DNA from: Dysgonomonas sp. Marseille-P4361
GTDB taxonomy: Bacteria; Bacteroidota; Bacteroidia; Bacteroidales; Dysgonomonadaceae
DNA length: 64,000 nucleotides
Assembly: GCF_900343125.1 (NCBI RefSeq)
Contig: NZ_OPYL01000003.1
Location: forward strand, 186,001 to 250,000
Direction: 5' to 3'
Made by a program: the position numbers and the translations under genes. The notes beneath the pieces are model-generated. The model was given only the letters and a program-made list of their open reading frames with translations, made no database searches and had not been told where the DNA came from. This document shows positions 33,374 to 51,726 of this stretch, piece after piece. Each line of letters opens with the position of its first letter. Positions within the stretch are counted from its first letter, which is position 1.

Positions 33374-34489
33374 ATGGGGCTTTTTGATAAACTAAGAGGT
33401 GAATTAATAGATATTATTGAATTTCTGGATAATACCCAAGATACAATAGTATATCGTTTCGAAAGATACAATAATCAGATAAAGAACAAAGCTAAACTGA
33501 TTGTTCGTGAAGGACAAATGGCTGTCTTTGTTAACGAAGGACAGATAGCGGATATGTTCACACCGGGAACTTATACCTTAAGTACACAGAATCTTCCTAT
33601 CTTGAGTACACTACAAGGATGGAAATATGGTTTTAACAGTCCGTTTAAAGCTGAAGTATATTTTGTCAGTACAAAAAACTTTATCGATCAGAAGTGGGGA
33701 ACAAAAAATGCAATTATACTGAATGACAACCGCTTTGGCATGGTCGAAATTCGTGCTTTTGGTATTTATTCATTTAAAGTAACTGCTGCCGACACTTTTA
33801 TAAAAGAGATTGTTGGTACAAATCAGACTTTTACGACCGAACATATACAGGAACAGCTAAAGAGTATAATTGTTACCAGATTTACAGATGCTACCGGAGA
33901 ATCTCATTTACCAGTAGAATCATATGCGGCCAATCTGAATGAGCTTTCGGAAGCTATATTTGGCTACATGAAAGATGATTTTGCTGCTTATGGTATGGAG
34001 GTTACAAAATTCCTGATAGAGAATGTATCCATGCCTGACGAAGTCAAGAAAGAGATATTTGAACTTAGCCGCCTAGACAAAATAGATTTAGATAAATTGA
34101 CTAAGCTGAAAACAGCTAAAGCTATGGAGGCTGCCGCTGAAAATCCATCAGGAACAGCAGGAATGGGAATCGGACTTGGAGCCGGTATGGCAATGGCTAA
34201 TCAAATGACTCAGGCAATGGCTAATCAAGCTCAAAATCAAGGTAGTCAAAATAATACTCAAGCCACCCCTCCCCCAATACCCGGAGCCTTGTCATATTAT
34301 GTTGCTGTAGACGGCAAACAAGCTGGACCTTTCAATAAAGATTCTTTAACAGAGCTTGTTTCTAAAGGAATCTTGACAAAAGAAACATTAGTCTGGAAAC
34401 AAGGTTTATCAGAGTGGGTAATTGCAGGTAATCAAGCTGATCTAAATGGCTTGTGGAGCGAAACACCTCCACCACTACCAAAGCTATAA
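33374..34489 (+). CDS. SPFH-domain protein with C-terminal GYF_2 domain
   Basis: A 371-aa protein. The N-terminal SPFH/band-7-like domain (about residues 35-230; VREGQMAVFVNEGQIADMFTPGTYTL is a hallmark of the YdjI/virion-core-like branch) is followed by a Gly-Ala-Met-rich, Gln-rich flexible linker (about 250-295, GMGIGLGAGMAMANQM). A PPPIPG segment leads to a GYF_2 domain (about 305-365; YYVAVDGKQAGPF and TLVWKQGLSEWV). It is likely a membrane-associated oligomeric scaffold; the GYF_2 domain may bind proline-rich partners. The TPPPLPKL tail may itself be such a ligand. It precedes the zinc-ribbon gene by 7 bp. Confidence 0.85.
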   Translation: MGLFDKLRGELIDIIEFLDNTQDTIVYRFERYNNQIKNKAKLIVREGQMAVFVNEGQIADMFTPGTYTLSTQNLPILSTLQGWKYGFNSPFKAEVYFVSTKNFIDQKWGTKNAIILNDNRFGMVEIRAFGIYSFKVTAADTFIKEIVGTNQTFTTEHIQEQLKSIIVTRFTDATGESHLPVESYAANLNELSEAIFGYMKDDFAAYGMEVTKFLIENVSMPDEVKKEIFELSRLDKIDLDKLTKLKTAKAMEAAAENPSGTAGMGIGLGAGMAMANQMTQAMANQAQNQGSQNNTQATPPPIPGALSYYVAVDGKQAGPFNKDSLTELVSKGILTKETLVWKQGLSEWVIAGNQADLNGLWSETPPPLPKL

Positions 34490-34496
34490 TAAGATA

Positions 34497-35591
34497 ATGT
34501 CGGATAATACAGAAAATAACATACCATTAAGCAGCGACACATATCAGTGCATGAATTGTGGCGCTGCTTTAAAATACAAACCGGGAACAACTTTTCTTCA
34601 TTGCGACTATTGTGGCACTGATACTCCTATAGAAGCCAAAGTAGTTGATATAGTAGAAGAGTTGGATTTTGAAGAATATTCCCTGAGTTTTGAGAAGCTC
34701 AACACCAAAGCAACCAAAGTGATTGGTTGTAGAAAGTGTGGAGCTGAATCTACTTTTGACGAAAGCTTAAAATCTGTTACATGTCCGTATTGCACCACAC
34801 CTCTCATTGAAGCAGATGTTCACGAAGAGCGGCTAATACAGCCATCCTACCTATTACCTTTCAAAGTAAAGGAAAGTGATACTCAAAACCATATGTCTAC
34901 TTGGCTAAAAAGCTTATGGTTTGCTCCCAATAAATTAAGAAAACAAGCCACATATTCCAACAAACTGCAAGGTATATATATTCCGTGTTGGACTTATGAT
35001 GCTCAGACAAATACTGACTATAAAGGACAACGGGGAGATAATTATACGGTCACCGTAGGTAGTGGCAAGAATAGACAAACCATAGTTAAAACAAGATGGT
35101 CATATTGCAGTGGTCATGTATCTTTATTCTTCGACGATGTTATGGTTCCCGCTTCTAAAATGATATCCTCTCCAGTTATGAATAAAATTCACAATTGGGA
35201 CACGATGAACATGGTTGAAACAGACAATCGCTTCTTGAGCGGATTTATTACAGAAAAATATGTTCTGAATATGACCGATGGGTTCCAGTATGCAAAACAA
35301 CAAATGGAATCTGAGATACATCAAGCTATCCGAAGTCAGATAGGAGGAGATGATCAACGTGTAAACTCTAAAAGCACAAAATTTAGTGATATAAAATTCA
35401 AGCTCATTCTATTGCCTGTATATATGTCTTCCTATACATATAGAAACAAGCTATATCATTTTTTCGTAAATGGAAGAACAGGCCGCGTAACCGGAGATCG
35501 GCCTTATAGTGCAATCAAGATAGCAATAGCTATTATAGTAGGATTAATTCTACTTGCTCTGTTTGCTATATTTGTCAACAACCAACAATAA
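34497..35591 (+). CDS. Double zinc-ribbon membrane protein, partner of the SPFH protein
   Basis: A 364-aa protein; I start at ATG 34497 (MSDNTENNIPLSS), 7 bp after the SPFH gene, not at 34446. Two zinc ribbons are visible: CMNCGAALKYK with CDYCG, and CRKCGAE with CPYC (together about residues 17-85). The central part, up to about residue 330, resembles TFIIB-ribbon YdjI-partner proteins. One C-terminal helix (IAIAIIVGLILLALFAIFV) anchors it. Pairing with an SPFH protein recurs in bacteria; no enzyme activity is apparent, so it may couple ribbon-binding to the SPFH scaffold. Confidence 0.75.
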   Translation: MSDNTENNIPLSSDTYQCMNCGAALKYKPGTTFLHCDYCGTDTPIEAKVVDIVEELDFEEYSLSFEKLNTKATKVIGCRKCGAESTFDESLKSVTCPYCTTPLIEADVHEERLIQPSYLLPFKVKESDTQNHMSTWLKSLWFAPNKLRKQATYSNKLQGIYIPCWTYDAQTNTDYKGQRGDNYTVTVGSGKNRQTIVKTRWSYCSGHVSLFFDDVMVPASKMISSPVMNKIHNWDTMNMVETDNRFLSGFITEKYVLNMTDGFQYAKQQMESEIHQAIRSQIGGDDQRVNSKSTKFSDIKFKLILLPVYMSSYTYRNKLYHFFVNGRTGRVTGDRPYSAIKIAIAIIVGLILLALFAIFVNNQQ

Positions 35592-38901: not shown

Positions 38902-39576
38902 TTACACAATTTGGGAATAAACAGCCCTTAATACCCAATATTGAGCCAGTGAGTTTATATTAAAAGGATATTCAACCCATTCATTTAGCGCTAATGTTAT
39001 ATTATCTTCTTTTTCTTTATACATACCTGCTTTAATTTCTTTTCCATCTATCATTATGCCTAGCTTATTACTTATTCGATGGATATTTTCCTTAACAACG
39101 TTTTCCATTATCAAAATATCTCCCGAATGATAATTATATTCGGCAGGTAAAGCATCCGGATTTTCAACTTCGAATGCTAATTGTTTGAATTTCGAATTTG
39201 TTGGCACAATTATCTGAGGAAGTCTTGCGATAAATTCTTCATCTGAATATTGTCTGATATAATCATCTATATATAATATAGGTATGTAAGGAATCTTAAG
39301 TAACTGCTGACCGACTTTCAACCGTTCCGTTTCAAGAACTAACCCAGCATTATAATGTAGTAATTCGTTAACAGAAAGGTCTTTTTGAATCAGATCGGAC
39401 AACGGAATGCTAAAATAATTAGCAATCCTAATTATCACCTCAATTCGAGGATCAGCTCTTCCTTCTTCATATGACGAAATATTGCCTCTAGTAAGCTCAA
39501 ACAGATCAGCAAAGGCTTGTTGGCTCAACCCCATTACATTTCTTATTTTTTTAATATTTTTTCCTATTTGCGTCAT
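38902..39576 (-). CDS. XRE HTH regulator with S24/LexA-like C-terminal domain
   Basis: A 224-aa phage-repressor-type protein. The N-terminal HTH (about residues 5-62; LSQQAFADLFELTRGNISSYEEGRADPR) is XRE type. The C-terminal half (about 105-220) has the beta-rich S24 layout: YNYHSGDILIMENVVKEN where a GDS-type Ser would stand, but the Ser is not conserved as such, so self-cleavage is doubtful. The gene is divergent from the ybjN-pspA unit, and its upstream region contains two 15-bp inverted repeats 40 bp apart. It most likely represses itself and the PspA/flotillin/ATPase genes. Confidence 0.75.
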   Translation of the reverse strand: MTQIGKNIKKIRNVMGLSQQAFADLFELTRGNISSYEEGRADPRIEVIIRIANYFSIPLSDLIQKDLSVNELLHYNAGLVLETERLKVGQQLLKIPYIPILYIDDYIRQYSDEEFIARLPQIIVPTNSKFKQLAFEVENPDALPAEYNYHSGDILIMENVVKENIHRISNKLGIMIDGKEIKAGMYKEKEDNITLALNEWVEYPFNINSLAQYWVLRAVYSQIV

Positions 39577-39582
39577 TTTATT

Positions 39583-39597
39583 GCTAAAAATATTTGC
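39583..39597. promoter_or_regulatory. Operator-like repeat 1 for the HTH-S24 regulator
   Basis: GCTAAAAATATTTGC, 7 bp upstream of the regulator's start codon. It is identical to repeat 2 except for one base (T versus A at the 12th-13th positions region), and its ends are complementary with one mismatch. Confidence 0.6.
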
Positions 39598-39622
39598 ATT
39601 GTAAAGTTATTCAACTACCTTA

Positions 39623-39637
39623 GCTAAAAATATTAGC
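39623..39637. promoter_or_regulatory. Operator-like repeat 2 for the HTH-S24 regulator
   Basis: GCTAAAAATATTAGC, with perfect GCTAA/TTAGC arms. Start-to-start spacing to repeat 1 is 40 bp, close to four helical turns, suggesting cooperative binding or a loop over the divergent promoters. Confidence 0.65.
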
Positions 39638-39724
39638 AAACTTAAGATTTTATTTCTTGAAAAACAAACTTTAGATTTAAAATCATGCTGCAACACTAAC
39701 AAACAACTTTAAACTATATAGCCT

Positions 39725-40114
39725 ATGTATTTCAAAAAGATCGAATCATTCATCACGAAGCTTGGCTACTCGGTTTCGTATCAAAACGAACAACAGGGCA
39801 TATTCCTTATCGAAAACGAATCAGACGGAATAAAGAACTTGATTATTGGCGTAGCACCTCCTATCCTAATTATGGAGCAATTTATCTTTGAACTCAAAAG
39901 CGATGATAAAGAGATTTACAAAGCCCTATTAAAAAAGAACAGAGATATTGTACATGGAGCTTTTGTATTGGACGAAGCTGGAAAGAAAGTCATTTTCAGA
40001 TACACAATGCAAATTGAACATTTGGATATAAATGAATTTGAAGGTGCATTAAACTCTTTAGGCTTATTATTAAGCGAATATTACGAACAAATTATTGAAT
40101 TTTCTAAAAAATAG
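39725..40114 (+). CDS. YbjN-like (secretion-chaperone fold) protein
   Basis: A 129-aa protein, all soluble, with the alternating strands and helices of the YbjN/type III secretion chaperone-like fold (YFKKIESFITKLGYSVSYQNEQQGIFLIEN and PPILIMEQFIFELKSDDKEIYKALLKKNRDIVHGAFVLDE). It is probably a small adaptor. It is the first gene of the presumed stress operon, 5 bp before pspA. In E. coli the corresponding position beside a PspA paralogue is occupied by a small DUF2170 protein, so an adaptor for PspA is a fair inference. Confidence 0.6.
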   Translation: MYFKKIESFITKLGYSVSYQNEQQGIFLIENESDGIKNLIIGVAPPILIMEQFIFELKSDDKEIYKALLKKNRDIVHGAFVLDEAGKKVIFRYTMQIEHLDINEFEGALNSLGLLLSEYYEQIIEFSKK

Positions 40115-40119
40115 AAGCT

Positions 40120-40821
40120 ATGAACATTTTCAAAAGACTTTTAAGAATCGGACAGGCAGAAATACATTCTGCAGTGGACAAAATGGAAGACCCTATCCGT
40201 ATGACAGAACAGGGGATCAGAGAAATGAGAGAAGATCTAGACAAAGCTCTTGAAGCATTGGCTCAAATAAAAGCATTAGCAATACGCACAAAAAACGATA
40301 AAACCAAGAAACAAACGAGTGCCGAGGATTATCAAAATAAGGCAATACTACTAATGACCAAAGCTCAAAAGGGAGAACTAGAACTAGATCAGACAGAACG
40401 ATTGGCTAAAGAAGCTTTGGCTCTGAAAGAAAACTTATTAGTGGAAGTAAACGCTTTAGGTGAGCAACAATTGATACACGAAAATTCGGCTGACGAAATT
40501 CAAAAGAACATAGACATTCTCCGATTCAACATCACAAAATGGGAGAATGAATTAAAAACACTCAAATCGAGAGTTAAAGTTAGCCGTGCAACGAAAGAAG
40601 TCAACAAACAGATGGCTCAAATTGACAGCAATAGCACCATCAGTATGCTCGAAAGGATGAAAGAAAAAGTAGAAGAAGAGGAAGCTCTTGCTCAAGCCTA
40701 TGGCGATATAGCCAACAAGAAGACTTCTGTCGACGATGAAATAGACAAAGCAATAGGCGATGATACTGGCAAGGTCAACCAAGATCTGGACGAAATAAAA
40801 AAACAACTAGGAATGTTATAA
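40120..40821 (+). CDS. pspA: PspA/IM30-family membrane-remodelling protein
   Basis: A 233-aa almost fully helical protein: MNIFKRLLRIGQAEIHSAVDKMEDPIRMTEQGIREMREDLDKALE is the typical N-terminal amphipathic helix and first hairpin. The long coiled coil continues to about residue 190, ending in a short flexible tail. PspA/IM30/Vipp1 proteins coat and repair the inner membrane and form rods related to ESCRT-III. It is placed between a YbjN-like gene and a YqiJ-like gene. No PspF or PspBC is nearby, so control is probably by the HTH-S24 repressor. Confidence 0.9.
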   Translation: MNIFKRLLRIGQAEIHSAVDKMEDPIRMTEQGIREMREDLDKALEALAQIKALAIRTKNDKTKKQTSAEDYQNKAILLMTKAQKGELELDQTERLAKEALALKENLLVEVNALGEQQLIHENSADEIQKNIDILRFNITKWENELKTLKSRVKVSRATKEVNKQMAQIDSNSTISMLERMKEKVEEEEALAQAYGDIANKKTSVDDEIDKAIGDDTGKVNQDLDEIKKQLGML

Positions 40822-40837
40822 GTTAGTGAATCAGGCG

Positions 40838-40891
40838 CCGATATGTCATAAACAGAAAGGTTATTGTCACTTGTCAAACTTGACATATCGG
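40838..40891 (+). promoter_or_regulatory. Stem-loop between pspA and the yqiJ-like gene
   Basis: CCGATATGTCA (40838-40848) pairs with TGACATATCGG (40881-40891). Inside the loop is a second repeat TGTCAA-AC-TTGACA (40873-40886), which shares the TGACA strand, so two mutually exclusive folds are possible. It could tune expression of the downstream genes relative to pspA. No T-tract follows. Confidence 0.5.
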
Positions 40892-40960
40892 TTCGCTTTA
40901 TTTATTACCGAAAGACACTTGTACTGATAAAGAAAATAATTACTTTTGATTTTAAATGCT

Positions 40961-41692
40961 ATGACTGATTTCTTATACAACTTAATGCATCCTCTTCCAA
41001 ATGCTATTATGACGGTAATAGTTGGAGTGACTGCTCTATATTGGCTCTTTGCCTTTATCAGTGGTGTTGGTGTTGATGCGCTCGATATTGACCTTGATTT
41101 TGACTTCGACACAGATATCGATACAGATGTAGACATAGATACTGATATTGATTCTGACATAGGCAAAAACATAGATATTGACACAGACTCAAACATAGAT
41201 GTACATCCCGAGCCAAGTGTATTTATGAAGTTTCTCAACTTTATGAATGTAGGGAAAGTTCCTTTTATGTTATTGCTCTCCACGCTAAAATTCTTCATGT
41301 GGATAATCACGTTGTTCACCACATCCATGGTCAATGTTACAGGTTGGGGACTATTTTCATTGCTTATATTATTACCAATAGGTATTATTGGCTTATTCTT
41401 TACTAAATTAGCAACCAATCCATTAGTTAAACTTTTCAAAGAGATGGGATATAAAGGAGAAGCAGAAATAGATTTTTTGGGGCGTTCGGGTAAAATGTTA
41501 TCTAATATAAAAGATCAGAAGATAGGCACAGCCGAGTTCTTAGTAGACAAAAATCCGATAAAGCTCAATGTCGTCAGCATCGATGGTCAGGAGTTGAAAT
41601 ATGGAGATTATGTCATTGTAGCCGATGAATCAGATGACAGAAGAATATATTATGTAAGTAAGGAAATCAGTATAAGGAACATGGACATATAA
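40961..41692 (+). CDS. YqiJ-like OB-fold membrane protein with Asp-X repeat
   Basis: A 243-aa protein (ATG 40961). Helix 1 is at about residues 14-37; a periplasmic or cytoplasmic loop (residues 39-81) then has Asp at every second position from 42 to 66, with Ile, Thr, Val, Leu or Phe between. Further helices lie near residues 98-120 and 122-140. The C-terminal OB-fold (about 165-243, GYKGEAEIDFLGRSGKMLS) is as in YqiJ/NfeD. In E. coli YqiJ is encoded beside the flotillin YqiK, as here. The acidic loop may bind cations, but that is inference. Confidence 0.75.
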   Translation: MTDFLYNLMHPLPNAIMTVIVGVTALYWLFAFISGVGVDALDIDLDFDFDTDIDTDVDIDTDIDSDIGKNIDIDTDSNIDVHPEPSVFMKFLNFMNVGKVPFMLLLSTLKFFMWIITLFTTSMVNVTGWGLFSLLILLPIGIIGLFFTKLATNPLVKLFKEMGYKGEAEIDFLGRSGKMLSNIKDQKIGTAEFLVDKNPIKLNVVSIDGQELKYGDYVIVADESDDRRIYYVSKEISIRNMDI

Positions 41693-41857
41693 ATGCTATT
41701 AAAAACTTTAAAAACTAACAAAATATAATTTTCATATTAGGTGCATGTATTTTAGGATTATACTTCCGTTTTTTATGACCTAAAATATAAATAAAACGAC
41801 ACAAATCATTTGATCTAAAATCAATTTAAATAACATATTAAATCTTTAAAACTTATT

Positions 41858-43921
41858 ATGGAAGGAATAAATCTTATTGTAATTATTGTAGGAGCCATAC
41901 TCTTCTTCATCTTCGTTATAGGAGGAGTTTTAGCCTCGTTCTACAAAAAAATTCCTCAGGGAAAAGCCATTGTACGTACAGGTGTAGGAGGTACAAAAGT
42001 AGCATTCAACAAAGGGATGATTGTTGTTCCTATTCTTCACAAAATGGAGATTATGGATATTTCTCTCAAGAAAGTGCAGATAGAGCGTATGGAACACGAT
42101 GGACTTATCTGTAAAGATAATATCCGTGCTGACATCAAAGTCGCATTCTTCGTGCGAGTAAATAAATCCGTAAACGATGTTATCAACGTAGCTCAATCTA
42201 TCGGAACATCTCGTGCCAGCGATATATCTACTTTGAATGACATATTCGAAGCTAAGTTTTCTGAAGCTCTTAAAACTGTTGGTAAGAAATTCGATTTCAT
42301 CGAGCTATACGAAGCGCGTAGAGAATTCCGTGACGAAATTATCAACATCATCGGTACAGACCTTAACGGATACGTACTTGATGACTGTGCGATTGACTAT
42401 TTGGAGCAAACTGAATTACAATATCTAAGTACAGATAACATTCTTGACTCAGAAGGGATCAAGAAGATTACAGACCTCACTACTGCTCAAAACATAAAAT
42501 CGAATCTTATCCGTAGAGAAGAAGAAAAGGTAATCAAAAAGCAAAATGTAGAAGCTCGTGAAGCTATTCTCGAATTAGAAAGACAACTTGCAGAGAAAGA
42601 AGAGAAGCAAAGAAGAGAAATAGATAACATCAAGGCTCGTGAAGAGGCTGAAATTCAGAAAGTAAGAGAAGAAGAACGTCTAAAAGCCGAAACAGTAAGA
42701 ATCACTACAGAAGAGAGCCTTGCCGTTCAGGAAGAGAATAAACTTCGTCAGATTATTATTGCTGCAAAAAACAAGCAACGTACAGATGCAGTTGAAACAG
42801 AGCGTGTAGAAAAAGACAGAGCTTTGGAGCAAACTGAAAGAGAAAGAATCGTTACACTATCGCAGATTGAGAAAGAACGTGTTATCGAAATTGAGAAAAA
42901 GAATATTCAGGATGTTATTCGCGAACGTGTACAGCTAGAAAAAGGCGTTGTAGAAGAAAAGCAAAACATGCAAGACATTGAAGCTTTCAGAACTATCGAC
43001 CGTCAAAAACAAGTTGGTATTACAGAAGCAAGTCAGCTTGCTGAACAACGACTAATAGAAACAGTAAAAGATGCTGAAGCCAGAAAGTTAGCAGCAGAAG
43101 AAAAAGCAAAAGAATTACTTATCGAAGCAGAAGCTCAGAAAGAAGCTTCTGCAAAACAAGCCGAGGCACGCAAAATACTTGCTGATGCTAAAGCTCGCGA
43201 AGATGCTACATTTGGCCTTGCAGAAGCAGAAGTAATCAAAGCCAAAGCTGATGCATTGGAACAACAAGGATTGATGGAAGCTACCATCATCGAGAAAAAG
43301 GCCAAAGCCGAAGCCGTTGGAATAGAAGCCAAGGCTGATGCGAAGAAAAAAGATGGTCTTGTTGAAGCCGAAGTTACTCGCGAAAAAGCACTTGCTGAAG
43401 CAACCGGTATAGAAGAGAAAGCTGAGGCTATGAAGAAACTTGACGGAGTGGGTAAAGAACACGAAGAATTCAAGCTTGCTCTTCAGAAAGAAAAAGATGT
43501 CGAGTTGGCTCAAATCAATATTCAAAAAGATATTGCAGATGCACAAGCTCGTGTATTGGCTGAAGCGCTTAAGAATGCGGATATTGATATCGTTGGTGGT
43601 GAAACAATGTTCTTTGAAAATATTGTTAAACAAATATCTAATGCAAAAGGATTCGATCGCTTGGTTAACGAAAGTTCAAATGCTACTCAGATCAAAGAAG
43701 CATTACTTGGTGACGGAGAATCTAGTGGTGATTTAATGGATCGTATCAGATACTTCGCCGAAAAATCAGGCATTACAACTGATGATATTAAGAACCTAAG
43801 CATTGCAGCTCTTATTCTAAAAATGCAAAGCGAAACTACCGACAAGGAAGATAAAGGCTTCCTTAGCAACCTTCTTAGTATGGCAAAAGCTGCCGGAATT
43901 TCGAATAAAAAACTAGGATAA
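41858..43921 (+). CDS. Flotillin-family SPFH protein (YqiK-like)
   Basis: A 687-aa protein. One N-terminal helix (INLIVIIVGAILFFIFVIGGVLASF) inserts in the membrane; an SPFH domain (about residues 28-200; KAIVRTGVGGTKVAFNKGMIVVPI) follows. A very long Glu/Lys/Ala-rich coiled coil (about 205-560) with repeating EEKEKQ-like and AEA-like heptads then leads to a globular C-terminus. Flotillins form ring-like membrane cages and microdomains. It sits between the YqiJ-like and AAA ATPase genes and is the likely platform of the module. Confidence 0.9.
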   Translation: MEGINLIVIIVGAILFFIFVIGGVLASFYKKIPQGKAIVRTGVGGTKVAFNKGMIVVPILHKMEIMDISLKKVQIERMEHDGLICKDNIRADIKVAFFVRVNKSVNDVINVAQSIGTSRASDISTLNDIFEAKFSEALKTVGKKFDFIELYEARREFRDEIINIIGTDLNGYVLDDCAIDYLEQTELQYLSTDNILDSEGIKKITDLTTAQNIKSNLIRREEEKVIKKQNVEAREAILELERQLAEKEEKQRREIDNIKAREEAEIQKVREEERLKAETVRITTEESLAVQEENKLRQIIIAAKNKQRTDAVETERVEKDRALEQTERERIVTLSQIEKERVIEIEKKNIQDVIRERVQLEKGVVEEKQNMQDIEAFRTIDRQKQVGITEASQLAEQRLIETVKDAEARKLAAEEKAKELLIEAEAQKEASAKQAEARKILADAKAREDATFGLAEAEVIKAKADALEQQGLMEATIIEKKAKAEAVGIEAKADAKKKDGLVEAEVTREKALAEATGIEEKAEAMKKLDGVGKEHEEFKLALQKEKDVELAQINIQKDIADAQARVLAEALKNADIDIVGGETMFFENIVKQISNAKGFDRLVNESSNATQIKEALLGDGESSGDLMDRIRYFAEKSGITTDDIKNLSIAALILKMQSETTDKEDKGFLSNLLSMAKAAGISNKKLG

Positions 43922-43945
43922 CATCCTTCACTTTCAATATTGAGT

Positions 43946-43963
43946 GGGCGGGTATCCCCGCCC
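43946..43963 (+). terminator. GC-rich hairpin after the flotillin gene
   Basis: GGGCGGG (43946-43952) pairs with CCCGCCC (43957-43963) with a TATC loop. No T-run follows, so it may only partly stop transcription or protect the flotillin mRNA 3' end. Confidence 0.5.
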
Positions 43964-44045
43964 TATTCTAAAAACAAATCAAATTATCCTATTCAAAAGG
44001 ATACAAACATAATTAGGAATAAAATTGCTATTCCTTGTAAAATCA

Positions 44046-44067
44046 GTTTGATTTATATAAATCAAAC
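44046..44067. repeat. Perfect 22-bp palindrome before the AAA ATPase gene
   Basis: GTTTGATTTAT followed by its exact reverse complement, 41 bp upstream of the ATPase start codon. It is too AT-rich for a stable terminator; an operator or second binding site is possible. Confidence 0.7.
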
Positions 44068-44108
44068 AACACATAAAACTGACTAAAACTAAAAATCTCA
44101 CATATATT

Positions 44109-47100
44109 ATGCAAGATTTGAATCAAAATAAAACTGTTGAAACTTTAGAAGCCGGCACTTACGAACTAATAAGGAAACGTCTCCACACTCAGAAAGATGA
44201 ATTATCTTCCCGACTAAATTCATTGAATGAAGCGAGAAAAGAAGTCTTCTCTTCAACAGACCTCTCATTATTGGCTAATCAACGAATCACGACAGAGAAC
44301 AACTGTGTTTCGAGAGGAATATTAGCCTTAGGAAATCTTTGTATTTTTGGTTACAATGTTCATTTCGGGCTACGTACTGATATACAACTGAGTGATGTTT
44401 TCAGTATCTATCTATTCGAGAACAATCAGTTTATTCCTCAACCGTTAGATTTAGTTAATGATCCTGCATTTATAACAGATTACAAGAATCTATACAAGTA
44501 TTATAGAGATTCTATTTTTTCCAGATTCAGAAAGACTGAGAATTATTTATACATGATTTTTCAGACTAGTAAAAATGCAGATGATCTGAAAGCCTTCAAA
44601 TGGTTGATAAAGAACAATAAACTTATATACCAAGATGACAGAAGCATACATGAAGTAGTCAATGCAACCCAACACGAATTCAAGTGGATAAAAACAACAT
44701 TGGAGGATCGTCGTTTAGGAACCCACCCGCATGTTTCTATTTTAGATAAAGTATTTATCGAAGCTGTAGGCGGAGATATTACTTTCAAGATAGAAGACAA
44801 CACTCATACTGGAAAAGGAATTTATTCTGAAAAAGTTGAAAATAAAGACCAGCAGCTAGATGATGCAGATTATTACTATGCTGACCTAGGAAATCTTATT
44901 CTTGTCAGAATCAAACCTTATCAAGAAGATTTCAGATCGTTTGTATTTAATACCCGAACAAAGGAAGTCAAGAATATTGAAACCTTAAATAATTCAGGAA
45001 TACTCCTACCTGATAATCATGGAATTATATTCCCTAATGGATATTATTTACAAAACGGGGATTACAAAATATTCGATAGCGAGTTAAGCAATCTAAAATT
45101 CTTTCGGAAAGTAGCTTCGCCCAATGGCGAAGACTTCTTGTATATGTTCTACCAATACGAACGAAATGTATATGTAATAATGTCTTACAACATTATTAAA
45201 CAACAGGTAGAAACTCCAATCATCTGTAATGGGCATACACTTTTCGGAGATGGGACATTAATTTTCTTCCGTTCCGAATTGGAAGCCACTCGCCATCATC
45301 AGGTTCAGATATGGAGAACTCCCTACTCTACCGAACTGATAGAAAATAAAGATAAAAAAGACAATATATTATATAAGATTGGCAATAAAGACATTGTCAA
45401 AGCGATGGCCGAATCTCAAGAGGTCATACACTTAATTAATAAAGAAGATACTTACGAGGGACTTTATGAAGATATCGTAAAGAAATCGAACGACATAATA
45501 GATGCTTATTTTTGGATATCCGACAATGCAACTTACAAATTGGCAGAACCTTTATCTGAAATAAAAGATATTGCCAACACAGCAATAGACGAATTTGAAA
45601 AAGTAAAAGCACAGAAAAAACATGCGACTGAAACTCTTGAATCAACAGAGAATAAAGTAGAAGCTTTACTGTTCGCCATCAAGAACACAAAATTCGATAC
45701 ACTAGATAAGTTAGTCAAGCTTCTTGCCGAAACGCGCAAAATGCAAGGAGAAGTCATCGAATTGAACAATGTAAGATACATTGATACAGTTCAAACAGAA
45801 GAATTAAAAAAGACTTTAATTTCGACCGGTACTAAGCTGTCGGAGAAAACTGTAGAATTTCTATTAAGACCCGAAGCACTTATCCCTTATCAGGAAAAGG
45901 TAGAAACAGAGCGAAAAGCAATTGAACAAGTAGAGAAAGTTATAGATGCCAACAAGATAGAGGATAACTGTAAACTTATTTCTTCTGAATTAGAGTTATT
46001 GATTGATATTCTGAATAGTCTTAAGATTGAAGACACTACTCAAACGACAAAAATCATAGAGAAAATATCTTTAATTTTTGCTTCGCTGAATGAAGTTAGA
46101 GCTCAATTGAAAAAGAAAATAGACTCTCTTAAGAATAAAGAAGCAATAGGAGAATTCAGGGCGCAACTAACACTGCTAGAACAGAGTATTGTAAACTATC
46201 TGGAACTAGCTACGTCACCCGAAAAGTGTGATGAATACTTCACCAAAGTTAGCGTTCAGGTAGAAGAACTGGAAAGTAAATTTGCGGACTTTGACGATTT
46301 TATTGTTGTTATAGCTGACAAACGGAATGAGGTTGTAAAAGCTTTTGATAGCCGAAAGGCTCAATTGATAGAGCAGATCAATAGACGAACATCTTCTCTT
46401 GAACAAATAGGTCTAAGAGTCCTCAAAAACGTAGAAAACAAAGCTCAATCTTTCAAATCGAAAGAGGAGATTCAAGCCTTCTATTCTACCGACTTGATGG
46501 TGGATAAAGTTCGCAAGCTGGTTGAAGACTTGAAGAATCTTGGTGATATCTCAAAGGCTGAAAATTTGGAAAACAGCCTAAAAACTTCACTCGAAGATGC
46601 CCTTCGTATCTTAAAAGATAAATCTGAATTGTTTGCTGATGGAGAAAATATTATTGCATTAGGAAATTATAAGTTTGCAGTAAACAAACAATCTCTAGAT
46701 CTGACAGTTGTTAGACGCGACAATCGTCTCCTCTATCACCTCACAGGAACCAGTTTTTATCAAGAACTACAAGACCCTAAAATAAATACATACCAAGATA
46801 TCTGGGAACAGGAAGTGGTTTCTGAGAACAAAGATGTATATCGTGGCGAATATTTAGCATATCTGGCTATTGAAGAAAGGCTAAAGTCAGACAGTTTCGA
46901 TGCAAAAGAATTTATTACAAATAAGGTAGAACAAAGCTATTCCGAATCTTACCTTAAAGGTGTACACGATTTTGATGCGCTGAATATATATAACGCTATA
47001 TGGTCTGTGTATGAGCAGCTGGGAGTTCTATCGTTCCGTCCACAGATACGTGTTGCTGCACAATTGTTCTGGAATAGCGTAGAAGCTGAAGAGAAAAGAT

Positions 47101-48956
47101 TACTAAAAGGACTTATAGTTTCTGCCAATAATGTGCTAAAAGCTTTTCCTGCTTCAAATAATTATGAGTATGTAATCAAGCAGATTGAAGAGCGATTCAC
47201 GCAGTGGAATACACATTTTAGTTTCTCTAAAATGAAAGCGAAACATATCGCATTGTATCTCTTCAAAGAGTATTCCAATTCTTCGGCATTTACTGTTACA
47301 GAACAATCTCAGGAGTTGGAGAAAGAGTTTTATGCTTATTTGAAAAAACAAAAATTATCGGAAAGATTTGAAGCTGACCTTGCTGAGGAATCATTCAGTA
47401 TAGTTGAGAGATTCTACCTTACACGCAACTGGCTATTGTCTTTTATCGACTTGTCCGACAAGTACAATAAATACATAAAATATGTAGGAGAAACATCTTG
47501 TCAACTTCTACTCAAAGAGCATCAGTTCGAAATGAGAAGAAGCCCTGATAGTGTCAAAATTGAAGATTTAAGAGGTAGCCATCCTGTTATTATAAATAAC
47601 ATTTACGAGGTTGATTTTCATGAATTTATTCTGAAACTGACTAATTTCACTGATGTAAGTGTCCCTACGTTCAATGAATTTACCCAACTGAAAGATCAGC
47701 TCGTTTCTTCGTACAAGAAATCATTAAAAATTAATGAATTAAAGCCTAGAGTATTAACATCCTTTGTAAGGAATAAGTTAATCAATGAGACTTATCTCCC
47801 GCTTATCGGAGCCAATCTAGCTAAGCAGCTTGGTGTAGCAGGTGATAATAAACGTACAGCCCGTATGGGAATGCTATTACTAATATCTCCTCCGGGATAT
47901 GGTAAAACAACATTGATGGAATATCTGGCAAATGTTATGGGACTAAACTTTGTAAAAATAAATGGCCCAACAATAGGTCATTCAATCACATCAATAGACC
48001 CTGCCGAAGCTAAAACTTCTGGAGCAAGAGAAGAATTGAAAAAGATAAATCTTGCTTTCGAAATGGCAGATAATGTGATGTTATATGTAGACGATATTCA
48101 ACACTGTAGTTCAGAATTCCTGCAAAAGTTCATTTCTCTTGCCGACGGACAGCGCAAAATGGATGGAATATTCGAAGGAGAAAGTAAGACATACGACCTA
48201 AGGGGAAAACGCTTCTGTGTAGTAATGGCAGGTAACCCCTACACCGAGAGTGGCGACAAATTTCAGATACCCGACATGTTGGCCAATCGTGCCGATGTGT
48301 ACAATCTTGGTGATGTTATCGGTGGCTCTGATCGTTTGTTTAAATTAAGCTTACTTGAAAACTCGATCATAGAAAATCCATATTTGCAAAAGATAGCCAG
48401 CAAAAGTTTCAACGACTTCTACAATCTGGTAAACTATATTGAAACGAAGAGTGAAATGATGCCCGACCTAGAAGGAAATCATACTCAGCAAGAGGTTGAC
48501 GACTTTATTGCTGTCGTTAAAAATTCTTTGATAATAAGAGATATTGTTCTTAAGGTTAATCAAAATTATATTGCCAGTGCAGCTACCCAAGATTCTTATC
48601 GCATAGAGCCGGCATTTAAGTTGCAAGGTTCGTACAGAAATATGAATAAATTGATAAGTCAAATCGTACCTTTAATGAATAAGAAAGAGATAGATGAGCT
48701 TATCCTTACTCATTACGAAAGTGAGTCGCAAACCCTAACCTCTGACAGTGAAGCAAATTTATTGAAATTAAAAGAAATTGCAGGATTGTTAAGCAATGAG
48801 GAAAAATCCCGTTGGAAACATATTAAAGAAGTATTTAATAAGAATAATAAATTTGCAGGCATCGATCAAAACAATCAGGCAGGGCAGGTTATTGCCCAAT
48901 TGGCTGAATTCAATGATAACTTAGCTGGAATAAAAAAAGCTATAAGTAAAGAGTAA
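44109..48956 (+). CDS. Giant AAA ATPase, DUF3686/"DNA repair ATPase" type (1615 aa)
   Basis: A 1615-aa protein. The N-terminal half (about residues 1-500) carries the DUF3686-like region (LLANQRITTENNCVSRGILALGNLCIFGYNVHFG and the following beta-rich part). Long coiled coils (about 510-870) come next, then a helical region and a single C-terminal AAA domain: Walker A SPPGYGKTT (Ser1260; Lys1266), Walker B MLYVDDIQ (Asp1328, Asp1329), VVMAGNPYTESGD as sensor 1, and an arginine-rich region near FKLQGSYRNMNK. The "DNA repair" name of the family is historical and untested. Its place directly downstream of a flotillin suggests a membrane-linked remodelling ATPase, like MoxR or Vps4 partners; that is inference. 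Confidence 0.8.
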   Translation: MQDLNQNKTVETLEAGTYELIRKRLHTQKDELSSRLNSLNEARKEVFSSTDLSLLANQRITTENNCVSRGILALGNLCIFGYNVHFGLRTDIQLSDVFSIYLFENNQFIPQPLDLVNDPAFITDYKNLYKYYRDSIFSRFRKTENYLYMIFQTSKNADDLKAFKWLIKNNKLIYQDDRSIHEVVNATQHEFKWIKTTLEDRRLGTHPHVSILDKVFIEAVGGDITFKIEDNTHTGKGIYSEKVENKDQQLDDADYYYADLGNLILVRIKPYQEDFRSFVFNTRTKEVKNIETLNNSGILLPDNHGIIFPNGYYLQNGDYKIFDSELSNLKFFRKVASPNGEDFLYMFYQYERNVYVIMSYNIIKQQVETPIICNGHTLFGDGTLIFFRSELEATRHHQVQIWRTPYSTELIENKDKKDNILYKIGNKDIVKAMAESQEVIHLINKEDTYEGLYEDIVKKSNDIIDAYFWISDNATYKLAEPLSEIKDIANTAIDEFEKVKAQKKHATETLESTENKVEALLFAIKNTKFDTLDKLVKLLAETRKMQGEVIELNNVRYIDTVQTEELKKTLISTGTKLSEKTVEFLLRPEALIPYQEKVETERKAIEQVEKVIDANKIEDNCKLISSELELLIDILNSLKIEDTTQTTKIIEKISLIFASLNEVRAQLKKKIDSLKNKEAIGEFRAQLTLLEQSIVNYLELATSPEKCDEYFTKVSVQVEELESKFADFDDFIVVIADKRNEVVKAFDSRKAQLIEQINRRTSSLEQIGLRVLKNVENKAQSFKSKEEIQAFYSTDLMVDKVRKLVEDLKNLGDISKAENLENSLKTSLEDALRILKDKSELFADGENIIALGNYKFAVNKQSLDLTVVRRDNRLLYHLTGTSFYQELQDPKINTYQDIWEQEVVSENKDVYRGEYLAYLAIEERLKSDSFDAKEFITNKVEQSYSESYLKGVHDFDALNIYNAIWSVYEQLGVLSFRPQIRVAAQLFWNSVEAEEKRLLKGLIVSANNVLKAFPASNNYEYVIKQIEERFTQWNTHFSFSKMKAKHIALYLFKEYSNSSAFTVTEQSQELEKEFYAYLKKQKLSERFEADLAEESFSIVERFYLTRNWLLSFIDLSDKYNKYIKYVGETSCQLLLKEHQFEMRRSPDSVKIEDLRGSHPVIINNIYEVDFHEFILKLTNFTDVSVPTFNEFTQLKDQLVSSYKKSLKINELKPRVLTSFVRNKLINETYLPLIGANLAKQLGVAGDNKRTARMGMLLLISPPGYGKTTLMEYLANVMGLNFVKINGPTIGHSITSIDPAEAKTSGAREELKKINLAFEMADNVMLYVDDIQHCSSEFLQKFISLADGQRKMDGIFEGESKTYDLRGKRFCVVMAGNPYTESGDKFQIPDMLANRADVYNLGDVIGGSDRLFKLSLLENSIIENPYLQKIASKSFNDFYNLVNYIETKSEMMPDLEGNHTQQEVDDFIAVVKNSLIIRDIVLKVNQNYIASAATQDSYRIEPAFKLQGSYRNMNKLISQIVPLMNKKEIDELILTHYESESQTLTSDSEANLLKLKEIAGLLSNEEKSRWKHIKEVFNKNNKFAGIDQNNQAGQVIAQLAEFNDNLAGIKKAISKE

Positions 48957-48994
48957 AAAATACAGATAGCCAAGAGGCAATGAACTTTACTATT

Positions 48995-49786
48995 ATGAAA
49001 AAAATTGAATTAATATTGTTCTTATCTTTTTTATTATTATACAGTTACAATGTTGATTCTCAAAATAAAGATTGGTCTCTTTCAACTGTAACTCATTTAG
49101 AGGACAAAATAACTAAAACAGATGGAAGTATCAGATATTTCATTGATCCTAAATCAAGCACAACTGCAAGGGATAGTATAATTGAAATAACGAAAGGATA
49201 TATAGAGCATAATTTGAAATTGATAGGTGAGTCTGATCTCAATGATTCTATTTATATAGTATTAGTTTGTAACAAGGATGATATGATCAAATATGCAGGA
49301 GGACGAATCTCGGGTATTTCCATATTGAAAGACGAATATGTTCCCCAAAATATGATATGTTGTATCCCTAAAGTACTGAAGCATGAACTCATGCATATGA
49401 TAATTAGCCTAAAATGGAATCCTTTGATAAAAAACTATATTGGGCATCCTGATTGGTTGGCGGAGGGTCTGGCCGTATACGCAGATCCTGAAGCTGAAGA
49501 CCTCTATGACGGAACCCTTGAGAAGGCATTTGCTAACTTTTATCAAAACAATAAACTATTAGAATTGGATTCGTTAACTAAATTTCCAAGTATTAAATCT
49601 AAAGAAATTGAAATAGCATATATTCAATCTGGTTATCTTGTACAATACCTAATTGAAAGATATGGAGTTCAAAAGTTTAAAGAACTGTGGTTAGGGATTG
49701 ATGATTTTGAAAAAATATATGGAATGAGTATGAAATGTATGATTCAAAAAATAAATAAAGAACTAGATAAAAAATATAACGATTGA
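48995..49786 (+). CDS. Secreted gluzincin-type metallopeptidase (MA clan)
   Basis: A 263-aa protein; ATG 48995 (MKKIELILFLSFLLLYSYNVDSQ) gives a clean signal peptide (48980 is also possible). The zinc site is KHELMHMIISL (HExxH) with a downstream DWLAEGLAVYADPE glutamate, as in clan MA gluzincins and the peptidase_MA family. It is probably periplasmic. It lies 38 bp after the AAA ATPase gene on the same strand, so it may belong to the operon as an envelope-facing member, but it may equally be an independent gene. Confidence 0.7.
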   Translation: MKKIELILFLSFLLLYSYNVDSQNKDWSLSTVTHLEDKITKTDGSIRYFIDPKSSTTARDSIIEITKGYIEHNLKLIGESDLNDSIYIVLVCNKDDMIKYAGGRISGISILKDEYVPQNMICCIPKVLKHELMHMIISLKWNPLIKNYIGHPDWLAEGLAVYADPEAEDLYDGTLEKAFANFYQNNKLLELDSLTKFPSIKSKEIEIAYIQSGYLVQYLIERYGVQKFKELWLGIDDFEKIYGMSMKCMIQKINKELDKKYND

Positions 49787-49852: not shown

Positions 49853-50578
49853 CTACTTTTTTCGGTTATCTTTTTTCTTAAAATCTTCTATAATAGAAAT
49901 CAGCGTATTCAAGGGTTGAATATCATAACGCAAGTCATTTCTAATACGGTTAAAATCCAGACGATTTACCACTCTGGTGGTCATATTATAACGTTTAGTA
50001 TACGACTTCCCTACAAGCTTATAAATATTATCTAAATCTCTGGCAGGATGTACCCTATCCTGAGCATTGATTAAATATGGATCAAATCCTAGTTTCTCCT
50101 TTATAAAACGTCCTGTCAGACGTTTATCTATCTTTTTCAGATGATTAGTCTCTGCCAAGAACCAAGCTTCTATCTCGTGTATTGCAATAATTATATCAAA
50201 ATACTGACGCTCATTCTTCAACCTATTGGGTAAAAATTTTAATCCTTTTTCTAATCGTTCCAAGTCTTCAATAGAAAGAGGATATAGATCTCGAAGTCCG
50301 ACAATCATTTCACAACCTCTTTTTCTTAGGCTCTCAATATTGTCTAGTATTTCTGATTTTACTCTATTATCTGAACCACAATCGAAAAGGAAAATTTCAT
50401 ATTTGGGATTTCGGGAGTATGAAGAATTTCTCACAATTTCTTGTTTAGGAATATTTACTCCTCCACGAAATTGTTTCTGGATTATATTAATTTGTGTAGT
50501 ACCCAGAATATCCTTTATCAAGCGATTTACAAAAATCTGCTCAGTTTGCCCTTCTACAAAAAAAGCAATTCTTCTCAT
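49853..50578 (-). CDS. DUF4276 TOPRIM-like protein, effector of an ATPase pair
   Basis: A 241-aa protein. RRIAFFVEGQTEQIFVNRL is the EGxTE-type first motif of TOPRIM-like DUF4276 proteins; YEIFLFDCGSDNRVK, MIVGLRDLYPL and DIIIAIHEIEAWFLA supply the acidic residues. The last is diagnostic for the family. It likely cuts nucleic acid. Its ATG overlaps the stop of the upstream ATPase gene by 4 bp (ATGA), so the pair is cotranslated. Together they resemble OLD-family or PARIS-type (ATPase plus TOPRIM) anti-phage systems; exact class is not settled. Confidence 0.7.
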   Translation of the reverse strand: MRRIAFFVEGQTEQIFVNRLIKDILGTTQINIIQKQFRGGVNIPKQEIVRNSSYSRNPKYEIFLFDCGSDNRVKSEILDNIESLRKRGCEMIVGLRDLYPLSIEDLERLEKGLKFLPNRLKNERQYFDIIIAIHEIEAWFLAETNHLKKIDKRLTGRFIKEKLGFDPYLINAQDRVHPARDLDNIYKLVGKSYTKRYNMTTRVVNRLDFNRIRNDLRYDIQPLNTLISIIEDFKKKDNRKK

Positions 50579-51726
50579 ATACCTCCATTATCATCATCTT
50601 CTTCATCCATCAGACCAAACCCTTTACGATAAAAGTCTGTGGTGAGAAAATCGAAATTATTCAACCCTGTATATCTAAAGTCTTCGAATGTCTCTTTCGA
50701 GTTTGTGTAATCATAAAAGACCGATTTACAGCCTTCTCTCTCTATTACAGACCAAAATCGAATAGGAATATGATTCATCACCTGCCGATCGTTAGAAGAC
50801 ATAAAAAATTGCATGTTAGACCTGTTTACTTTTTTTACAACCATATCTATCACACTTCTCGATCTTTCGAAGTCTAGCCCCTCTCCCATATCATCGATCA
50901 AAATGCAGACTGATAAATTGCTCATTTTAGCATATGTCAATATTATAAATAAAGAAAGAGCTCTAAACATACCTTGTGACATATCCCTTTGAGAAACGGC
51001 ATATTTGCCATCCTCTTCAATAGACAATCCATATCTCCCGTTATACTCTTGGATACAGACATCGGTAATATAATACCCTAATTCTTCCATATTGGAGATA
51101 ACTTCTTTTATAAAAGGTTCTCCAAACTGTGTACATCCTTGATGAAAAGTATAAATTAACAAGTCAGCACCTTCGTCACCCGGATCTTCATCATCGAGCT
51201 GTGTATACGTCTTTACCAGACTATTTTTTTCTATTTGATTTGCAAACAGATAATTACGCAAGGTATTCCCCCATAAAACAAATTTTTCATAATACGGTTT
51301 TTCATCCTCATCCAATTTCGATATGCATAATTCATAATCCTCCACTTCAAAATGAAGTTCTTCTCCGCTTATTGATTTTAATATTTGTTTTTCTCTATCA
51401 ATTATCTTCTTATTATCTACATATAGAATTTCCGAAACCACCTTCTGGTCTATATATTCTAATACATATCTATACTTTCCCTTTTCATTTTTGAATATCA
51501 GATCAAAACTTTCAGTGGGACTTATTGTACCCTTAAGATTTATTCTTCCGGAGAATAAATTCCCAATTTCTCGCATAACACTTAATGTGCGACTTTTACC
51601 TGAGGCATTCTTGCCTACCAGCAAATTTATATTGTCAAAATATGCGTAATCATTATTTGGTCCTTCAATACTCCATTTGCGAGGAGCACCTTTATAACGA
51701 GTATATTTTAAAGCTTTAAGTATCAT
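50575..51726 (-). CDS. AAA/ABC-type ATPase, partner of the TOPRIM-like protein
   Basis: A 383-aa SMC/OLD-like ATPase. Walker A is LLVGKNASGKSRTLS (about residue 37); the signature is SQRDMSQGMFRALSLF; Walker B is VCILIDDMGEGLDFERS, where Asp replaces the usual catalytic Glu; and the D-loop/His-switch area is FFMSSNDRQVMNHIP. This DDxGEGLD form is characteristic of one ATPase branch that pairs with DUF4276 proteins. It is monocistronic with its partner, isolated between a peptidase and an antiporter gene. A phage-sensing switch is the likely role by analogy; no insertion repeats are seen. Confidence 0.75.
   Translation of the reverse strand: MILKALKYTRYKGAPRKWSIEGPNNDYAYFDNINLLVGKNASGKSRTLSVMREIGNLFSGRINLKGTISPTESFDLIFKNEKGKYRYVLEYIDQKVVSEILYVDNKKIIDREKQILKSISGEELHFEVEDYELCISKLDEDEKPYYEKFVLWGNTLRNYLFANQIEKNSLVKTYTQLDDEDPGDEGADLLIYTFHQGCTQFGEPFIKEVISNMEELGYYITDVCIQEYNGRYGLSIEEDGKYAVSQRDMSQGMFRALSLFIILTYAKMSNLSVCILIDDMGEGLDFERSRSVIDMVVKKVNRSNMQFFMSSNDRQVMNHIPIRFWSVIEREGCKSVFYDYTNSKETFEDFRYTGLNNFDFLTTDFYRKGFGLMDEEDDDNGGI

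Follow-up and report, generated by a model that had tools for sequence, protein, structure and literature searches.

A conserved flotillin-YqiJ-ATPase gene set in Dysgonomonas with a PspA-CesT pair and a divergent regulator, probably serving membrane stress

Gene content of the locus

The window analyzed here, a stretch of 64,000 nucleotides from Dysgonomonas sp. Marseille-P4361, contains a regulator gene that faces five collinear genes and a gene for a secreted gluzincin (Table 1). All seven open reading frames lie where the sequence-only reading had placed them, with the regulator divergent from the rest. One of its labels had to be replaced: the protein it had called YbjN-like is of the CesT/Tir type, as its Pfam match to YbjN (9.9e-6) is far weaker than that to CesT_Tir_1. 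The YqiJ-like open reading frame is listed from a TTG, and the in-frame ATG at 40961 is the more likely start. The encoded protein is expected to carry an NfeD-type OB fold, an expectation drawn in part from the accessible part of an earlier report (PMC2636767).

Table 1. Features of the gene set and its candidate operators, in window positions
Feature	Position	Strand	Details
Divergent regulator	38902-39576	-	224 aa; Pfam HTH_3 6.9e-11, HTH_19; predicted LexA/CI-like C-terminal domain
Candidate operator copy 1, GCTAAAAATATTTGC	39583-39597		one mismatch
Candidate operator copy 2, GCTAAAAATATTAGC	39623-39637		perfect; 40 bp from copy 1
CesT/Tir-like chaperone-type protein	39725-40114	+	129 aa; Pfam CesT_Tir_1 PF22550 1.3e-51
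PspA/IM30, ESCRT-III superfamily	40120-40821	+	233 aa; PspA_IM30 PF04012 8.7e-45
YqiJ-like membrane protein	40946-41692	+	YqiJ_N PF21001 0.0021, 18.7 bits, cut-off of 23 not reached
Flotillin-type SPFH protein (P0005)	41858-43921	+	687 aa; relatives annotated flotillin/SPFH
Flotillin tail segment, residues ~500-610	43355-43687	+	seen only in ATPase-bearing genomes
ATPase (P0006), DUF3686 + DUF7902 + C-terminal AAA+	44109-48956	+	1615 aa; DUF3686 3.8e-170 (Pfam)
Secreted gluzincin (P0007), HELMH	48980-49786	+	268 aa; Peptidase_MA_2 PF13485 5.6e-13

Pfam did not find Band_7 on P0005 at E 0.1, and we call this protein a flotillin on the strength of its relatives, which carry flotillin or SPFH annotations. 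Sequence searches returned no solved relative for it or for the CesT-like protein. In the ATPase, the residues that we take to be Walker A (GYGKT) and the two Walker B aspartates, together with N1376, R1394, and R1510, are invariant in 109/109 ATPases. Compared with solved AAA+ structures, the ATPase profile matched only around the P-loop among the matches listed; those to RuvB and Cdc48 were weak and confined to that region. Pfam found neither an MIT domain (at E 0.1) nor an M41 protease domain on P0006. The accessible part of Ravi et al. 2024 (PMC11237479) describes DUF3686 as beta-propeller repeats. Our literature search returned no paper with the term DUF3686 and none that joined "DNA repair ATPase" with "flotillin"; thus, the role of the ATPase looks unstudied in the literature searched. 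A terminator scan gave 5 sites where 5.5 were expected, and therefore no excess, with the longest stem just past the regulator gene. None of the sites on the + strand separates one of the five genes from the next, although this alone is no proof of a single transcript.

The gluzincin had been counted as a part of the module. BLASTP in L001-L072 found no relative of P0007 besides the window's own locus (L073-L152 lay outside the search), and the protein is apparently strain-specific rather than a part of the system. Secreted-looking HExxH proteins of other families occur in or beside the operon of relatives, one with DUF4932 (L056:2709-4106, -) and one of M54 (L076:9296-9922, +); counted with the Peptidase_MA protein of the window, these cases are too few for a conclusion on a peptidase as a system part. 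Just downstream of the operon, at 49853-51726 on the - strand, adjacent DUF4276 and AAA_21 genes form a candidate two-gene defense pair, with PADLOC matches to HEC-01B (3.1e-11) and AbiLi/AriA (2.7e-21 and 1.8e-14). A second SPFH gene (Band_7_1 and GYF_2) and, after it, a gene whose product weakly matches a zinc ribbon lie at 33374-35591 (+), 3.3 kb from the regulator gene.

Conservation and distribution of the ATPase loci

We surveyed 99 ATPase loci, which remained of 119 (the window and L035-L152) after one near-duplicate and 19 loci with less than 5.5 kb of upstream sequence were removed; the short loci L001-L034 were left out of this count, and a set of 80 loci used for further comparisons, the best 80 of 586 confirmed relatives, is biased to Bacteroidota. 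The neighborhood proposed from the window proved to be conserved. A flotillin gene lies within 9 kb of the ATPase in 96/99 loci, the window included (upstream and on the same strand in 95/99, with a median gap of 141 bp), and a YqiJ gene occupies the corresponding position in 93/99. PspA was found in 51 of the 99 loci, CesT in 49, and the regulator, never on the ATPase strand, in 50. Regulator and CesT-PspA pair occurred together at 48 loci, the regulator only at 2, the pair only at 1, and neither at 48. In 48/99 loci, a span of 9 kb contains all six genes and the regulator is divergent; the trio YqiJ-flotillin-ATPase stands alone in 40/99. The gene grouping exceeds chance and, because of these counts, we regard the trio as a core and CesT-PspA with the regulator as an added unit.

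At L056, the one locus scored as "pair only", a regulator does lie upstream, but at 9.6 kb it falls outside the 9-kb limit. As judged by the CesT profile, all 49 pair-bearing loci belong to Bacteroidota. The Pseudomonas plasmid pQBR103 (L063) was scored as carrying PspA without CesT; there, a YjfI-PspA-DUF350-glutathionylspermidine synthase operon is followed by the trio, and the YjfI may be a CesT relative. Three of the 99 loci (L045, L101, and L145) have no flotillin within 9 kb, and in the case of L045 a tailed flotillin is encoded on another contig. The distance correlation with the ATPase (49 loci) was 0.93 for flotillin, 0.91 for the regulator, 0.89 for YqiJ, 0.83 for CesT, and 0.69 for PspA. 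Thus, the correlation of the regulator is as good as that of YqiJ, which is a misfit with a purely added-on regulator. No further partner recurred, the largest cluster of other neighbors comprising 6 loci.

In genome G691 (L057 and L215) the operon is spread over two contigs, with the break between YqiJ and flotillin, and the open reading frame directly before the flotillin (L057 7236-8408) resembles a transposase by eye. In Dysgonomonas capnocytophagoides (L076), the ATPase frame is broken into two open reading frames, PspA, CesT, and regulator are absent from the available stretch, and the genome has no PspA match; this may be a decaying copy.

DUF3686 was found in 8/296 genomes of the window's phylum and, over the cut-off, in 18/393 genomes of its order (19 at E 0.001; G384, which is below the cut-off, was left out of the ATPase-bearing genomes). 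Within the genus, 7/25 genomes carry the ATPase. It also turned up in 12 plasmid records but in none of the phage records, and a scan of viral contigs that reaches close relatives only did not find it. In a quick tree of 109 ATPases, those of Sphingobacterium, Paenimyroides, Chryseobacterium oryctis, Empedobacter, and the Dysgonomonas group form one well-supported set, a grouping that suggests lateral transfer. The presence of the CesT-PspA pair requires at least seven changes on the tree, six of them forced by well-supported branches. An apparent ATPase of 3320 aa in L120 was discarded, since a run of N had produced it.

The flotillin tail and the divergent regulator

The 96 ATPase-linked flotillins share a strong block of conservation near residues 500-610, and this tail tracks the ATPase genome by genome. 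In the window's order, it was found at E <1e-10 in 18/393 genomes, the same 18 that carry the ATPase over the cut-off (two genomes with marginal scores, G325 at 6e-4 and G599 at 7e-4, were not counted as tailed, and G622 has only part of the tail, at the end of a contig). The same picture emerged in the phylum of the Rhodopirellula genome G721, with tail and ATPase each in 10/63 genomes, which are identical. In the window's phylum, the 8/296 genomes with the tail are again the 8 with the ATPase, and the match of 12 other flotillin-matched genomes stops at residue 497 or earlier. A tail profile built from Bacteroidota alone matched 29/29 flotillins of other phyla and 0/10 intact ATPase-less flotillins of the phylum, all 10 of which adjoin a YqiJ gene; 12 such loci had been fetched, but L178, truncated where its contig ends, and L185, whose match is weak and shorter, were excluded. 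Among plasmids, 321 records had a flotillin match, and the 12 ATPase-bearing ones head the ranking; in the best 60 of the 321, the matches of the 48 without ATPase end at residue 401. The E. coli plasmid flotillins among the matches listed match P0005 only to residue 401, and their records have no ATPase match. The tblastn match of S. globosus reached only residue 404, yet its open reading frame is tailed by the profile (L072).

In the three draft genomes of family f61 (3/3), flotillin and ATPase are both present on different contigs, and the flotillin contig keeps regulator-CesT-PspA-YqiJ-flotillin together without the ATPase. In G422, other genes surround both sides, which marks a real loss of linkage; the loss is also clear for the flotillin side of G305, while the contigs of G519 end near the genes. 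Together, the tail of ~110 residues and its matching occurrence point to flotillin and ATPase as partners, with the tail as a concrete candidate docking site.

Between the regulator and CesT genes lie two copies of a palindromic candidate operator, GCTAA-N5-TTAGC, a pair that the repeat search lists too. With up to two mismatches, it was present in 48/48 regulator regions against 7.3 expected and a maximum of 14 in 200 shuffles, a count that leaves out one longer region (L056) and includes the window by construction, as the motif was first read off it. By eye, 37/48 regions contain a site that is perfect or deviates at a single position. An operator matrix found a site at 9/9 unlinked regulator loci outside the matrix and at both loci in which the regulator faces YqiJ directly (p 0.003-0.02); 1/20 control promoters reached p 0.027. 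Thus, the proposal of a dedicated divergent regulator was borne out, as the conserved group faces a regulator with its own operator. We also considered a trans regulon and rejected it, since the operator was found at 0/10 promoters of unlinked trios and 0/3 promoters of unlinked ATPases. This shows that co-regulation is not general.

The sequence-only reading had described the regulator as an HTH-S24 protein. Its HTH part was confirmed, whereas S24 was not matched by Pfam on the window's protein at E 0.1, although 12/34 aligned relatives do match it. The structural model of the regulator (pLDDT 86.6, pTM 0.57) had its best PDB matches in lambda CI, 186 CI, and LexA, and the query-normalised TM-scores of the seven PDB matches at E 0.001 were only 0.27-0.47. 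By this model, the protein is predicted to combine an HTH with a LexA/CI-type C-terminal fold. At the likely site of the catalytic serine, the window's regulator has Asp-Ala and no serine; across the alignment, serine occurs in 1/34 at one candidate column and in 8/34 at the next, and 5 of those 8 regulators are among the window's eight nearest relatives. Because close relatives have serine at a neighboring column, the regulator may undergo self-cleavage and be linked to DNA damage. The operator offers a handle on what induces the gene set.

Proposed mechanism and alternatives

The gene set is real, conserved, and already described. In its accessible part, Ravi et al. 2024 (PMC11237479) sets out CesT/Tir-PspA with band-7/flotillin, YqiJ/YuaF, and an AAA+ ATPase that has a beta-propeller at its N terminus and a coiled coil, the same five protein types that share one neighborhood here, as well as shorter operons without PspA, and proposes roles in assembly or remodeling. 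The supposition that the set is under-described was thus not supported. By Pfam, the AAA+ protein here reads as DUF3686, DUF7902, and AAA, compared with the architecture given there. The accessible text makes no mention of a divergent regulator, an operator, or an ATPase-tied flotillin tail, and the new elements here are the pairing of tail with ATPase and that of regulator with operator.

This patchily distributed gene set probably serves membrane stress. We favor, as somewhat more likely right than not, a flotillin/NfeD-type scaffold that a dedicated AAA+ ATPase operates and to which PspA-CesT is often added for repair, under a LexA/CI-type regulator. The reading builds on gene order, co-occurrence, the tail, and the conserved operator, all read from sequence; what we infer is repression, each biochemical step, an inducing signal, a substrate, and binding of the tail to the ATPase. 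The core machine would consist of the tailed flotillin, the NfeD-like YqiJ, and the DUF3686 AAA+ ATPase. At the inner membrane, flotillin and YqiJ would form an assembly that corrals or holds damaged membrane proteins, by analogy with S. aureus FloA-NfeD, which according to the accessible part of its description stabilizes or holds unfolded proteins independently of ATP (PMC11222466). Flotillin and an NfeD-type partner are common to both, and a dedicated ATPase gene is added here. As far as the available text of the reports goes, a YqiJ/DUF1449 gene likewise adjoins a flotillin gene in E. coli YqiJ-YqiK (PMC2636767) and Shewanella SO1376-SO1377 (PMC1468410), and knock-out of the flotillin relative SO1377 leads to peroxide sensitivity (PMC1468410).

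The C-terminal tail of the flotillin would recruit the ATPase, as their matching occurrence suggests, and ATP hydrolysis would then open, recycle, or empty the scaffold. The latter step is suggested by the intact AAA+ motifs and by the precedent of HflK/C, which, in the accessible parts of two reports, surrounds the AAA+ protease FtsH (PMC12048511; PMC11260169). Common to both is an SPFH scaffold with an AAA+ protein at the inner membrane, here by co-occurrence only; the AAA+ protein here differs by having DUF3686 and DUF7902 and no M41 match. In Bacteroidota, the CesT-PspA pair with its own divergent regulator would have been placed in front, and the regulator, on leaving the GCTAA-N5-TTAGC operators, would allow PspA-based repair and the flotillin/ATPase scaffold to be made together. 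Teamwork of PspA with an SPFH protein, YdjI, is described for B. subtilis, with no DUF3686 ATPase named in the accessible portions of those papers (PMC9239133, PMC11188069). A more far-reaching version, to which we give slightly less than an even chance, is that these loci represent a second, widespread SPFH-AAA+ kind, in which a flotillin class marked by a C-terminal docking tail binds a dedicated giant AAA+ ATPase as an ATP-driven counterpart of the FloA-NfeD holdase, and which in Bacteroidota gained PspA-CesT as an ESCRT-III-type arm controlled by the one regulator.

An alternative that we consider unlikely, although it overlaps in part with the preferred scaffold reading, is that two stress units, regulator-CesT-PspA and YqiJ-flotillin-ATPase, are co-inherited and both answer membrane stress without forming a single machine. 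Regulator and pair indeed travel together across the 99 loci, the trio often stands alone, and unlinked trios have no operator. Moreover, at 20 PspA loci taken from the 30 ATPase-less PspA genomes, the regulator was found at 4, CesT at 10, and YqiJ and flotillin at 0. Nevertheless, the compact six-gene arrangement at 48/99 loci argues against two separate units, as does f61, in which regulator, CesT, and PspA stayed with YqiJ and flotillin when the ATPase was elsewhere.

Less probable still is an ESCRT-like role, in which the ATPase would disassemble PspA polymers as Vps4 does ESCRT-III, with the flotillin as a membrane platform only. PspA has been placed in the ESCRT-III superfamily in the accessible part of PMC11188069, and a gene of this superfamily accompanies the ATPase in the window and in 51/99 loci. 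The two are also coupled statistically. PspA is over the cut-off in 48/393 genomes of the order, comprising 18/18 ATPase genomes and 30/375 others (P 1.4e-18, and 6e-10 at the genus level, Fisher values that ignore shared ancestry), and in 13 of the 18 it was not at the ATPase locus fetched. Within the genus, PspA of the window type is present in 6/7 ATPase genomes and 0/18 others. We further examined 23 ATPase genomes chosen for lacking a complete local CesT-PspA pair (23 of 32 pair-lacking loci from the set of 80, with L120, L121, L126, L128, L133, L136, L140, L147, and L148 left out): 12 have PspA over the cut-off elsewhere, 2 have sub-cut-off matches only, and in 9 the search at E 0.001 returned no PspA. 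The nine include MAGs, and also the named isolates D. capnocytophagoides (with its broken ATPase frame), C. balustinum, C. aahli, and H. pacifica, plus R. baltica BR-MGV. Because PspA is in 18/18 ATPase genomes of the order but has no match in 9 of the 23 chosen genomes, it is a frequent companion of the ATPase and apparently not an obligate one. In contrast to Vps4, the ATPase has no MIT match, and its presumed substrate was not matched in every ATPase genome. An ATPase-specific PspA tail was looked for and rejected, as the C termini look alike by eye with (13) and without (20) the ATPase. Thus, of the proposal that PspA and the ATPase form one machine, the coupling in the order stands, while a Vps4 for PspA is not favored, the marker of the ATPase being the tailed flotillin.

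We judge it highly improbable that the gene set is an anti-phage system sensing envelope damage. Its patchy distribution (7/25 genomes of the genus) and the candidate DUF4276/AAA_21 pair just downstream would fit such a role; however, PADLOC matched the seven proteins only to generic HTH and SMC-like coiled-coil models and once, weakly, to an AAA model, so that phage defense found no specific match, and Pfam gave no nuclease match above the cut-off among them. The absence of the ATPase from phages and viral contigs is neutral in this respect.

Hardest to credit is a DNA-repair ATPase, the role given in the database and Pfam label and compatible with the weak RuvB and Cdc48 matches at the P-loop. 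Should the regulator function in the LexA manner in some relatives, induction by DNA damage would be conceivable. However, no DNA-repair family was seen among the recurrent neighbors, in agreement with the doubt voiced in the sequence-only reading, and the constant partner is a membrane flotillin. Docking through the tail, if true, would turn this "DNA repair ATPase" into a membrane machine.
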